DNA of 64,000 nt, from contig NZ_CP144914.1 in the NCBI RefSeq assembly GCF_008014775.2, positions 1,364,001-1,428,000 on the forward strand, read 5' to 3'. The position numbers and the translations under genes were made by a program. The notes beneath the pieces were generated by a model. That model was not told where the DNA came from. It saw only the letters and a program-made list of their open reading frames with translations, and did no database searches. Positions 16,226 through 58,207 of this stretch are shown in pieces. Numbering within the stretch: position 1 is the stretch's first letter; each line of letters begins with the position of its first letter. The DNA is from Alkalicoccus halolimnae. GTDB taxonomy: Bacteria > Bacillota > Bacilli > Bacillales > Salisediminibacteriaceae.

Positions 16226-16395
16226 TAGAAGAGATCTCCTTTTACTGAATAATCCTGATCAATTTTAAGGGAGTAATCCGATCAGGAGAAAAGTTTTCCT
16301 TTAATATAAAAACTGCGACTACTAATGAAGCCTGAGATAAAAATCAGCCTGTTTTCACACAGGGATTTTAAGAGAAATTAAATTAAGGGCCGTAT

Positions 16396-16426
16396 AAAAG
16401 CGGATCCGGCGAGCGAATCCGCTTTT
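16396..16426 (-). terminator. Terminator of the DUF1538/PII operon
   Basis: AAAAGCGGAT / ATCCGCTTTT hairpin a few bases downstream of the PII-family stop codon on the minus strand. Confidence 0.85.
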
Positions 16427-16430
16427 CTTA

Positions 16431-17141
16431 CTACTCTTTAGTTTCGGTTTCTTCGAGGAGGTGGTGAATACCAACGGTTTCTTCGACTGGAAGGACGAAA
16501 GAAATACCTTTACCAGGCTCATTTATTTTCACGTCTTCTTCAATTGCTTTCAGAACATCACGCGTCTGACTGCGTTTAATTAATGTTAAAACCACGTCTT
16601 TTTCCGGTTCAATCTGGATAGAAAACAACTTTGCTTTTTCATGAATTCCGCTGCCTCTTCCGCTCATTACGGTGCCGCCCTCTGCACCTCCGCGGTTTGA
16701 AGCGTCAATTACTTTTCCGGATTCCCCCTTGTTTACTATAGTAATAATTAAGTCAAACCCTTTATGTGTTACGTCATCTGTCATCATATCCAGATCCTCC
16801 TTTTCAATTTCTTCATATTCCATATGAGAAATCCCGATGGTTTTCTTTATATCTATTATAAAACCTATACCTTTCCCCGGCTCGTTCAGTTTGGCGGCTT
16901 CTGAAACTTCTTTTACAACGTCGGCCAGAATGTCTTCCGGAATCAAAGTTAGAATTAATTCTTTTTCATGAATGGCATCAATACCGAATATCTGCTTTTT
17001 TTCGTGAATGCCTACTCCGGTTCCGAGCATGATCGTGCCACCCTCAGATCCTGCATCTTTCGCCGCTTTCATTACTTTTTTTGCACGGCCTTTTTTTACA
17101 ATTGTAACGAGTAATTTATGATCTTTGCGAAGTATGCTCAT
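16431..17141 (-). CDS. Tandem PII-family signalling protein
   Basis: 236 aa made of two PII-like domains in one chain (residues about 8-113 and 128-230). Each half contains GGT(I/V)MxGxGxGIHEK and the C-terminal PII pattern NEPGKGI followed by a VGI/IGI strand, so this is a fused duplication; normal PII proteins are about 112 aa trimers. The T-loop residues differ from classical GlnB, so glutamine signalling should not be assumed. Start set at ATG 17141: it overlaps the upstream DUF1538 stop by 4 bases and has GGAAGGAG before it. Being last in an operon of two predicted membrane proteins, it is probably a nucleotide-sensing regulator of them, as GlnK is for AmtB; that is inference. Confidence 0.88.
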   Translation of the reverse strand: MSILRKDHKLLVTIVKKGRAKKVMKAAKDAGSEGGTIMLGTGVGIHEKKQIFGIDAIHEKELILTLIPEDILADVVKEVSEAAKLNEPGKGIGFIIDIKKTIGISHMEYEEIEKEDLDMMTDDVTHKGFDLIITIVNKGESGKVIDASNRGGAEGGTVMSGRGSGIHEKAKLFSIQIEPEKDVVLTLIKRSQTRDVLKAIEEDVKINEPGKGISFVLPVEETVGIHHLLEETETKE

Positions 17142-17869
17142 GTATTGGACCGCTCCTTCCATTTAAATAACAAACCAAGTATAAGCACAGCGAGGATAGG
17201 GGTCAATGCTACAAGAGCAATCATTCCGAAGCCGTCTAATAGAGGATCCCTTCCTTCTGTTACTTCCGCAACACCTACCGCAATAGCCATAATGAAAGTT
17301 ACCGTCATAGGACCGGTAGCTACCCCTCCAGCATCAAAAGCAATAGAAACGAATCGATCGCTGGAAATAAATACAAGAATAAAAGCAAGAGCATATCCTG
17401 GCACGATTAAATACCAAAGAGGAAATCCCATTACTATTCTGATCATTGCCAGGGCAATAGACACCCCGACTCCGAGAGAAAGCGTAAGAAGCATTACGTT
17501 TTTTGATATCGAACCAGCAGTTACTTTTTCTACTTCATAGTTAAGTATTCTTATTGCCGGTTCAGCAAAAGTTGCTACTAAGCCAAATATAAAACCGAGG
17601 ATGGGAAGAAGGATAATTGTGTTATCACGCTGGCCGAGCAGTTCCCCAATAGCTTCGCCCGCGGGAAAGAAACCTACTTCGACACCTTGGAGAAAAAGTA
17701 CAAGCCCTAGAAATGTAAAAATCAGTCCAACAAATATGTTTTTTAGTCTTTGTTTATCCAGGTCTAAAAAGAAAATTTGAAAAATAAGAAAGAAAATCAG
17801 TAAAGGAATTACTGCCAGAGCTACTTCGTATATCACATGGCCTATCCCATCAAACAAGTCCATTATCAT
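17138..17869 (-). CDS. DUF1538 family membrane protein, second copy
   Basis: 243 aa, about six hydrophobic segments, with the family motif AFDAGGVATGPMTVTFI near residues 175-191 and AEPAIRILNYEV near 102-113. It is clearly paralogous to the gene just upstream (same motif positions, same length). Function unknown; the pattern of conserved GG and GP motifs inside membrane segments suggests a transporter or channel. Start ATG 17869 overlaps the previous stop by 4 bases and its own stop overlaps the PII start by 4 bases, so all three products are translationally coupled. Confidence 0.87.
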   Translation of the reverse strand: MIMDLFDGIGHVIYEVALAVIPLLIFFLIFQIFFLDLDKQRLKNIFVGLIFTFLGLVLFLQGVEVGFFPAGEAIGELLGQRDNTIILLPILGFIFGLVATFAEPAIRILNYEVEKVTAGSISKNVMLLTLSLGVGVSIALAMIRIVMGFPLWYLIVPGYALAFILVFISSDRFVSIAFDAGGVATGPMTVTFIMAIAVGVAEVTEGRDPLLDGFGMIALVALTPILAVLILGLLFKWKERSNT

Positions 17870-18558
17870 CCGTATATCACTCCCAGCACCATAACGGCAA
17901 GAATAGGACCGATGGAAGCCAGCGCGACGAGGCCGAAGCCGTCACTTGTTGATGATTTTCCTCTAAGCACGGATGCTACTCCCACTCCTAGTGCCAGAAT
18001 GAAAGGCACGGTCATCGGTCCTGTCGTCACGCCCCCGGCATCAAAAGAAATCGGTATAAATGTGGCGGGCGTAAAAAGTGCGAGCAGACCTACTATAGAG
18101 TACCCGCCTGCGAGCAGCCATTTTAACGGAATGTTGAAAACAGTTCTTGCCATAGCTGTCATTACAAAAAAGCCGACACCAAGAGCTACCGAATAAACGA
18201 GCACAAGATTAGGTATCTCCCCTCCGGAAACATCGTCAATCTGCGATGCGAGAACTCTTACATCGGGTTCTGCGATTGTAACTACAACTCCAAGAACAAA
18301 ACCAACCGACAAGATAAGCCAGATTTTGTTTGTTTTAGGAAGAGTGGAACCTATTAGTTCACCGATAGGGAGCAGACCAATATGTACACCAACCAGAAAA
18401 AGAAAAAGCCCTAATCCAACCATAACAACTCCAGCAATAAAGCGGAAAAACAGATCAGGAGGCAGGCCGATTAAAGTGTATTGAAGAATTATAATCACGA
18501 CTGCCAAAGGAAGTATAGCCATTACTACTTCTTTTAACTGATCAAAAATATCACTCAT
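17866..18558 (-). CDS. DUF1538 family membrane protein, first copy
   Basis: 230 aa with about six to seven transmembrane stretches and the family motif SFDAGGVTTGPMTVPFI near residues 170-186; AEPDVRVLASQI occurs in mid-protein. It is the first gene of the DUF1538-DUF1538-PII operon. Start chosen at ATG 18558, seven bases after GGAGG on the minus strand; a longer frame up to 18621 has no ribosome binding site. Each copy looks complete, so the pair is unlikely to be a split single gene. Function is not known to me. Confidence 0.87.
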   Translation of the reverse strand: MSDIFDQLKEVVMAILPLAVVIIILQYTLIGLPPDLFFRFIAGVVMVGLGLFLFLVGVHIGLLPIGELIGSTLPKTNKIWLILSVGFVLGVVVTIAEPDVRVLASQIDDVSGGEIPNLVLVYSVALGVGFFVMTAMARTVFNIPLKWLLAGGYSIVGLLALFTPATFIPISFDAGGVTTGPMTVPFILALGVGVASVLRGKSSTSDGFGLVALASIGPILAVMVLGVIYG

Positions 18559-18679
18559 GTTCATTCCTCCTTTTCTTAAAGCTGTGATTAAGCCTGTGGT
18601 TCTTACGCAAAAAAGAATCATTCCTGCTCTTTATCATTTACAGGCTGTTTCTTTATTTAGAAGTCAGCTCCCGCTCTGT

Positions 18680-18847
18680 CTTTTTACCGTAAGCTGAAGA
18701 GGACATAGGGCGACTCCTGGGAGATGAAGGACGAGCCCCACTCCGCCCCCGACGGAAGGGAGGACGGAATTAGCTGAGGCCGGCCCTGCGCCCGCATGAA
18801 ACGAAAGCGTACGTCTATCGGTTATCTACTTTATTTTCAAGGCAGCC
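18680..18847. repeat. Dispersed intergenic repeat, copy A
   Basis: About 170 bases starting near TTTTTACCGTAAGCTG and ending near TTTATTTTCAAGGCAG, richer in G+C than its flanks. It aligns along its whole length with 58035-58207; shared blocks include GGCGACTCC, AAGGACGAG, GGGAGGACGGAAT, AGCTGAGGCCGG and ACGAAAGCG. No good frame or transposase is seen. It lies upstream of the DUF1538 operon and the zinc-finger gene. Confidence 0.8.
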
Positions 18848-58034: not shown

Positions 58035-58207
58035 TATCTTTTTACCATAAGCTGGAGTTGAGATGGGGCGACTCCGGGGCGATGTGAAGGACGAGTCGAA
58101 GATTCATTCCGCCCGACCACAGGGAGGACGGAATCAGCTGAGGCCGGTCCTGCGTCCCCATGGAAACGAAAGCGCCCGTTCATCGCTTATCTACTTTACT
58201 TTCAAGG
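58035..58207. repeat. Dispersed intergenic repeat, copy B
   Basis: About 170 bases from CTTTTTACCATAAGCTG to CTTTACTTTCAAGGTAGG. Roughly four of five bases match copy A at 18680-18847 in the same orientation. An internal inverted repeat ATTCCG/CGGAAT and CGACT/AGTCG suggests structure as RNA or DNA. No coding frame seen. Confidence 0.8.

Follow-up and report, generated by a model that had tools for sequence, protein, structure and literature searches.

What is a protein of the PII superfamily doing in one operon with a pair of DUF1538 membrane proteins? The question is raised by three genes on the minus strand of a 64,000-nucleotide stretch of the Alkalicoccus halolimnae genome (contig NZ_CP144914.1, positions 1,364,001 to 1,428,000; the window), which encode, in this order, the membrane proteins DUF1538-A and DUF1538-B and a fused double PII-like protein. 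An earlier note, made from the sequence alone, had described them as two paralogues of unknown function paired with a duplicated PII chain. The paralogy and the duplication were confirmed by Pfam, with PF07556 scores of 254.8 and 259.1 bits for the DUF1538 copies (cut-off 22.6; E 6.5e-76 and 3e-77) and two PF00543 stretches in the third protein (E 9.6e-14, 52 bits, cut-off 25), and by identities of 40.5% between A and B and 45% between the two PII halves. The motifs quoted in that note are present as well, as FDAGGVTTGPMTVPFI and FDAGGVATGPMTVTFI in the DUF1538 copies and as GGTIMLGTGVGIHEK and GGTVMSGRGSGIHEK in the PII halves. Comparison of gene order across genomes showed that the DUF1538 pair and the PII-like protein constitute one conserved gene unit, and on balance we favour the view that DUF1538-A and DUF1538-B are a DUF1538 (UmpAB)-family antiporter for monovalent cations and protons, with a dedicated PII-like regulator encoded in the same operon.

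Conservation of the pairing was assessed in a table of 140 loci (80 around relatives of DUF1538-A and 60 further ones), which is not a random sample, being composed of best matches to the window protein or to the Pfam model plus hand-chosen genomes, and which leaves out the window (L001-L004), an E. coli control (L085) and repeat genomes (L091, L098-L105). A PII gene was located downstream of DUF1538 on the same strand in 134 of these 140 loci, or in 131 of 137 distinct loci once three pairs with an identical DUF1538 domain were merged (L032/L111, L037/L121, L046/L047); at the six remaining loci the contig ends at the DUF1538 gene or, in L084, 127 bases beyond it. Samples of whole genomes gave the same picture. 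Among 198 genomes of Desulfobacterota, the phylum of the L034 genome, DUF1538 was found in eight and PII in all eight of these, one of the PII genes being visible only as a cut gene start. In the family of the window's genome, the DUF1538 and PII profiles matched the same 31 of 35 genomes (own included) and missed the same four. Within the Bacilli, the profile of a cousin type of PII, described below, matched 22 of 299 genomes (E <= 1e-6, own included), with the best match behind DUF1538 in 22/22. Seventeen Bacillota genomes were chosen for weaker or odd-copy DUF1538 matches, and PII was present in 16 of them, that of genome G489 lying on a contig with stretches of N. The exception, G291 (L192, G291:C1:2158500-2164500), has a DUF1538 gene broken by several stop codons with no PII seen beside it, so that both may perhaps have been lost together. 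Co-occurrence of DUF1538 with PII-like genes in other genomes, which the earlier note had made the touchstone of its proposal, was thus near-universal in every sample.

The pairing extends over Bacillota, Thermodesulfobacteriota, Thermotogota, Atribacterota and Pseudomonadota, and plasmid copies in the Alphaproteobacteria Methylocystis and Chelativorans show the same gene order, with the PII gene annotated as 'P-II family nitrogen regulator'. The first DUF1538 gene of the Chelativorans plasmid (L087:3252-3800) is shortened, its match to the family model being confined to the last third; the other DUF1538 copy and the PII gene look whole. DUF1538 was detected in 139 of 398 Bacillota genomes sampled and many of the named relatives are gut Clostridia, which indicates that the system is common. 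No other constant neighbour emerged from clustering of the neighbouring open reading frames (ORFs), where the next commonest family occurred in 10 loci at varied places, and a constant third partner gene was therefore rejected. Chance adjacency and nitrogen regulation were also rejected, because the double PII gene is the sole PF00543 gene found in a search of the 3.69-Mb genome and no Amt-type neighbour was seen among the window ORFs, inspected by eye and without a profile search; the sole DUF1538 pair found in that genome is A/B. An apparent DUF1538-PII gene fusion in L184 runs through stretches of N and was not used as a fusion, its PII domains being counted for G489. Within the open-licence literature searched, no paper linking DUF1538 with PII was recognised: PII or P-II had 0 occurrences in the main text of PMC5484666 and in the text of PMC5996927 and PMC6055358, and P-II, GlnB and PF00543 had 0 in that of PMC13255231. 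As judged from these gene neighbourhoods, the pairing is real, conserved and undescribed within that literature.

The survey of fused and separate versions suggested in the earlier note found both. A fused DUF1538 pair with a fused double PII was the commonest whole-locus form (57 loci of the 140-locus table), followed by two DUF1538 genes with a double PII (25), with one PII (17) or with two PII genes (11) and by one DUF1538 with one PII (5), the remainder being smaller classes and cut loci. Agreement between the module counts in several of these forms (1+1, 2+2, fused+fused) is suggestive of a stoichiometric complex. In L135, L136, L137, L144 and L145 the stretch read holds a single DUF1538 gene and a single PII gene with no adjacent second paralogue, unlike UmpAB, and in L138, L148 and L149 tandem DUF1538-PII operons occur, two per genome region. 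The earlier note had also deduced from the 4-base overlaps that the products are made in fixed proportion. Both overlaps are present and favour coupled translation of the window genes; fixed proportions are not proved by a 4-base overlap. Across loci, the ATGA overlap was found at 73 of 93 DUF1538/DUF1538 junctions, with a 1-base overlap at another 11, and at only 18 of 172 DUF1538-PII junctions.

To which kind of PII protein does the regulator belong? An AlphaFold2 model of the double protein, built from 36 sequences, consists of two ferredoxin-like units (mean predicted local distance difference test score, pLDDT, 76.1, with the linker and the second T-loop poor), and its best Foldseek matches in the PDB were GlnK1, GlnK (including 2ns1, the AmtB-GlnK complex) and other PII proteins, at E of about 1e-5. 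The PF00543 match above cut-off and the predicted fold place the protein in the PII superfamily. Canonical PII proteins bind ATP (adenosine triphosphate) through residues that include Thr29, Gln39, Gly87, Lys90, Arg101 and Arg103, with Phe92 flanking the adenine; Gln39 is also the Mg ligand, and Arg9 and Lys58 serve for 2-oxoglutarate (PMC8395244). An alignment to M. jannaschii GlnK1 was made for 303 PII domains, of which 295 are distinct and which come from 167 loci (3 of 306 were dropped as short); the resulting counts depend on the alignment and are least sure in the T-loop. Thr29 (252/303), Phe92 (260/303), Lys58 (281/303) and Gly87 (211/303) were mostly retained. Position 9 was Arg or Lys in 73/303 domains, Arg103 was found in 65/303, Asp88 and Lys90 in 1/303 each, and Gln39 and Arg101 in none, position 39 being His in 126/303. 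The uridylylation site Tyr51 occurred in 3/303, and the T-loop is about 5 residues shorter than the canonical one, the alignment of this loop being uncertain. Both window halves carry Thr, His, Lys, Gly, Ile, Phe and Gly at positions 29, 39, 58, 87, 90, 92 and 101, with S/H at 103.

These proteins therefore lack what marks the canonical nitrogen PII proteins GlnB and GlnK, namely the Mg-ATP/2-oxoglutarate ligand set and Tyr51 in a full-length T-loop. We infer that the base side of the pocket was kept and the polyphosphate side lost, which makes the classical ATP/2-oxoglutarate signal unlikely, and canonical Mg-ATP/2-oxoglutarate sensing appears doubtful. The expectation that the PII chain responds to nucleotides was not supported, since Gln39, Lys90 and Arg101 are replaced in the window and almost everywhere among the 303 domains, and the canonical PII signal is not to be assumed. 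That all four modules appear functional is a fair reading of the window sequences; it does not extend to the clostridial fused PII proteins, in which the GIHE motif is mostly lost from the first half. Two Desulfobacterota loci carry, behind an extended fused DUF1538, a protein of 369-381 amino acids (L096:328-1437, L097:287-1432) in which our own profile found one PII unit in one case and two in the other, further units, among them one at the N-terminus that ends in PGRG, being suggested by eye only. Pfam gave a sub-threshold PII match for one of the proteins and none for the other. This protein may comprise three diverged PII-like units and possibly form a covalent pseudo-trimer.

On the membrane side, 88 DUF1538 domains were compared. 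The Asp of the FD[AS]GG-type motif is invariant, and the acidic position of the AEP motif is Glu in 84 and Asp in 4 domains. The predicted model of a natural fused DUF1538 protein (L081; pLDDT 89.6, predicted template-modelling score 0.87) is all helix, with breaks near the AEP and FDxGG motifs. Foldseek gave 0 PDB matches at E <= 0.001 for it, the best being EAAT3 at E 0.02 with a template-modelling score of 0.15, a result that may also reflect a missed fold; a known fold for DUF1538 was rejected on the lack of a significant match. A high-confidence model without such a match implies that a structure could reveal a new transporter architecture. An internal inverted repeat was likewise rejected, the half-versus-half profile comparisons being not significant (E 0.11-0.32), with two of the three cuts aligning the AEP stretch with the FDxGG stretch. 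Fused DUF1538 proteins of gut Clostridia (for example L081:3986-5524) often have an acidic C-terminal tail whose last residues are IIEL or similar; a loose pattern for this tail matched 47 of 80 multi-domain DUF1538 proteins, some of the 80 being cut at the end, and the tail is possibly a docking peptide for PII or another partner.

A tree of the same domains, midpoint-rooted for drawing only, set a B clade of 40 rows apart from all others (100/99), recovered an A clade of 38 rows (100/96) and traced the fused genes to one origin. Two rows labelled S are in fact B copies, from L213, where the A copy is cut by the locus end, and from L087, where it is shortened. Between A and B lies a third group (100/96), formed by the single-copy type (L135, L137, L144, L145) and by the Desulfobacterota pairs L092-L094. 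The two copies of the latter group with each other (100/99), so that this tree implies at least two origins of the two-gene state. Their best NCBIfam matches, with UmpA and UmpB in the expected order, score 332-360 and 316-325 bits, respectively, below the cut-offs; this UmpAB-like clade also has a PII gene behind the DUF1538 pair.

What process, then, would be regulated? The earlier note spoke of an uncharacterised regulated transport system. Regulated transport is supported by the near-universal co-occurrence; 'unknown function' does not hold, as UmpAB of Halomonas zhaodongensis, a DUF1538 pair, was described in a 2017 report as a Na+(Li+,K+)/H+ antiporter of two components, a heterodimer active at pH 6.5-9.5, with antiport of Na+, Li+ and K+ in everted vesicles and complementation of salt tolerance (PMC5484666). 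In a machine-learning study DUF1538 is listed among the key gene families for optimal growth pH (PMC13255231). The window proteins score 121.7-129.6 bits against the NCBIfam models for UmpA and UmpB (NF041627/NF041628; cut-offs 490/500), far enough below to be regarded as family members and not as equivalogs. Further support came from the family of the window's genome, in which 6 of 35 genomes contain an additional, single-domain cousin PII; the PII profile search of the 35 genomes did not find it in the window's own. In L197, L200, L231 and L232 it lies just 5' of a full-length NhaP2-type K+/H+ antiporter-like ORF, in L198 only the last third of an antiporter remains behind it, and in L199 no antiporter is nearby. 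Two of these antiporters were identified by Pfam and NCBIfam (PF00999 plus TrkA_C; potassium/proton antiporter, 610 bits) and the others by sequence likeness. This arrangement independently supports the view that cation/proton antiport is what is regulated, although the support is local.

In the mechanism that we propose, A and B would act as one transport unit, like UmpA and UmpB in the published report, and the AEP and FDxGG acids of each DUF1538 protein would lie in the ion/proton path. The two-half PII-like chains would assemble into a ring that docks at the cytoplasmic face, where the shortened T-loop would hold or release the transporter, like GlnK on AmtB or SbtB on SbtA. The ligand would not be Mg-ATP/2-oxoglutarate bound in the classical way; candidates are a small adenine compound carrying fewer phosphates and an ion or proton sensed near the T-loop His39. 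As judged from relatives, the PII-like protein would probably serve to adjust Na+(K+)/H+ exchange rapidly, at the post-translational level, in a bacterium adapted to salt and alkali.

It has to be noted that several points weigh against an antiporter with a dedicated PII-like regulator. The measurements of antiport concern a single homologue and come from a single laboratory. They followed a complementation screen in E. coli KNabc (PMC5484666), which also yielded several unrelated 'antiporters' (PMC5996927, PMC6055358). The phenotype of UmpAB in E. coli arose from an insert for which PMC5484666 lists no PII gene, which means that activity in that setting does not strictly require PII. On the tree, window A and B fall in clades separate from the UmpA-like and UmpB-like rows and are not orthologues of UmpA and UmpB; the UmpAB-like proteins of Desulfobacterota, too, fail to reach the NCBIfam cut-offs. 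The fold search showed no similarity to a known antiporter in the PDB. Known PII partners can work as trimers (PMC10710835), as against the UmpAB heterodimer, and a strict module ratio is not established, because two DUF1538 genes with one PII are common. Finally, alkali or salt stress is not an obvious need in gut Clostridia, the source of many named members.

A transporter of another kind was also considered. The DUF1538 pair might transport something else, such as bicarbonate or an organic anion, perhaps by coupling to Na+, with the salt phenotype of UmpAB being secondary and the PII-like protein still regulating it, like SbtB on SbtA. We regard this as possible but rather unlikely. PII-family proteins are known to control both SbtA and AmtB (PMC10710835), DUF1538 is common in Bacillota, with many gut Clostridia among the named matches, and antiport has been claimed from one complementation-based study (PMC5484666). 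Speaking against a different substrate are the vesicle antiport reported in the same study, the cousin PII adjoining a K+/H+ antiporter gene, the names of the cultured Bacilli among the matches, which point largely to salt or alkali species, and the Pfam search of window A and B, which returned DUF1538 only and no other transporter family.

The pair could also be an ion channel or leak pathway gated by the PII ring, a proposal that recalls the plugging of AmtB by GlnK (PMC10710835) and agrees with the lack of fold similarity between DUF1538 and known antiporters; the reported complementation and vesicle antiport (PMC5484666) and the two conserved acids per subunit, as would be expected for coupled exchange, make it highly improbable. 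It seems improbable as well that the PII-like protein reports on the transporter, being sequestered at the membrane and released to a separate target. AmtB is known to sequester GlnK at the membrane, according to the title of a reference, and the operon holds the sole PF00543 gene found in the genome. The neighbourhoods, however, show no second constant partner gene, and DUF1538 and PII modules match in number in most forms, as would suit a stoichiometric complex. A cation/proton antiporter with its own PII-like regulator is the reading that we favour.

The features of the operon and of the cousin PII genes are collected in Table 1. For DUF1538-A, the start at 18558 is accompanied by an AAGGAGG Shine-Dalgarno sequence and is favoured by relatives such as L005 and L006, which share its length; a longer ORF exists from an upstream ATG at 18621. 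For the double PII, the start at 17141 is favoured over an alternative upstream ATG at 17162 because of the ATGA overlap and the AAGGAG ahead of it. The hairpin region (16380-16430) has a predicted energy of -18.2 kcal/mol (z -2.5), and a consensus scan listed part of the hairpin (16411-16424) on the plus strand and none on the minus strand; it is only a possible terminator, since the U run sits within the stem and not behind it. Riboswitch control was rejected, as no convincing element was found at the window or upstream in 17 loci. The Rfam scan of the window gave two matches, both far below gathering scores (best E 0.72), with none at the operon reaching threshold. In the 17 loci, FMN, BsrF, TPP and Bacillaceae-1 matches were obtained, none at the operon 5' end on the operon strand, the BsrF match in L009 (3624-3730) lying on the opposite strand. 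A short G+C-rich motif 5' of the operon (18708-18725) reappears at 58066-58083 with 2 mismatches (chance expectation of any match 0.04) and is possibly a dispersed repeat of the Alkalicoccus halolimnae genome.

Table 1. Features of the DUF1538-PII operon in the window, and cousin PII genes at loci of related genomes
Feature	Coordinates	Strand	Basis
DUF1538-A, first membrane subunit, 230 amino acids	17866..18558	-	ORF and Pfam; AEP (Glu) and FDAGG (Asp) motifs conserved
DUF1538-B, second membrane subunit, 243 amino acids, paralogue of A	17138..17869	-	ORF and Pfam
Fused double PII-like protein, 236 amino acids	16431..17141	-	ORF, Pfam, AlphaFold2 model with two PII (ferredoxin-like) domains
ATGA overlap, stop of DUF1538-A / start of DUF1538-B, 4 bases	17866..17869	-	
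ATGA overlap, stop of DUF1538-B / start of double PII, 4 bases	17138..17141	-	
13-pair hairpin directly 3' of the PII stop codon, possible intrinsic terminator	16396..16426	-	
Cousin PII	L197:4892-5215, L198:5022-5345, L200:5071-5376, L231:4823-5071, L232:1-210, L199:5172-5522		

If our reading is correct, a third component, with a regulatory role, belongs to the 'two-component' antiporter family and is publicly annotated as a nitrogen regulator, PII control extends from the transport of ammonium, nitrate, urea and bicarbonate (PMC10710835) to monovalent cation/proton exchange, and these operons are a well-defined place to look for a new PII ligand. We put forward, more tentatively, a wider proposal: a widespread branch of the PII superfamily might have left nitrogen sensing to become a dedicated regulator of cation/proton antiporters, of the DUF1538 type in all places examined and, in the family of the window's genome, also of the NhaP2-type K+/H+ type. 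Such proteins would have given up the phosphate, Mg and uridylylation residues, kept most of the base-side pocket and Lys58, and come to sense a different ligand (a small adenine compound, or pH or a cation through the T-loop His), and their number of domains would tend to go with the number in the transporter (1+1, 2+2, fused 2 with fused 2, and perhaps the chain of three PII-like units).

How does the operon compare with known systems? It resembles UmpAB in PF07556, in two paralogous membrane proteins encoded by adjacent overlapping genes and in the conserved acidic residues, and differs in that its pair stems, on the tree, from a separate duplication, scores far below the equivalog cut-offs and is accompanied by PII, of which the main text of PMC5484666 makes no mention. 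The cousin PII shares with the window protein the PII profile, the EPGxGI motif and a monovalent cation/proton antiporter as neighbour; it differs in being a single domain, in its partner (PF00999 plus TrkA_C) and in its restriction to close relatives of the window's genome. With GlnK-AmtB the operon has in common a PII-family protein encoded with a membrane transport protein, the PII fold and the Foldseek match to 2ns1; the partner here is DUF1538 and not Amt, and the PII protein is doubled, with a shorter T-loop and with Gln39, Lys90, Arg101 and Tyr51 replaced. SbtA belongs to a family other than DUF1538, the only one matched by the window membrane proteins in Pfam, and the substrate would differ if the antiporter reading is true. 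The likeness to SbtB-SbtA lies in the pairing of a PII-family protein with a transporter, there for bicarbonate (PMC10710835). PII-family proteins control AmtB and SbtA, and an antiporter is absent from the list of PII-controlled transport in the text of PMC10710835 that was available. As in PII-regulated transporters, the genes for a PII-family protein and for a transporter are constantly paired here. Altogether, this comparison of genes suggests that DUF1538-PII operons extend the known theme of PII-regulated transporters by a PII-like regulator that is absent from the published description of the exchanger.

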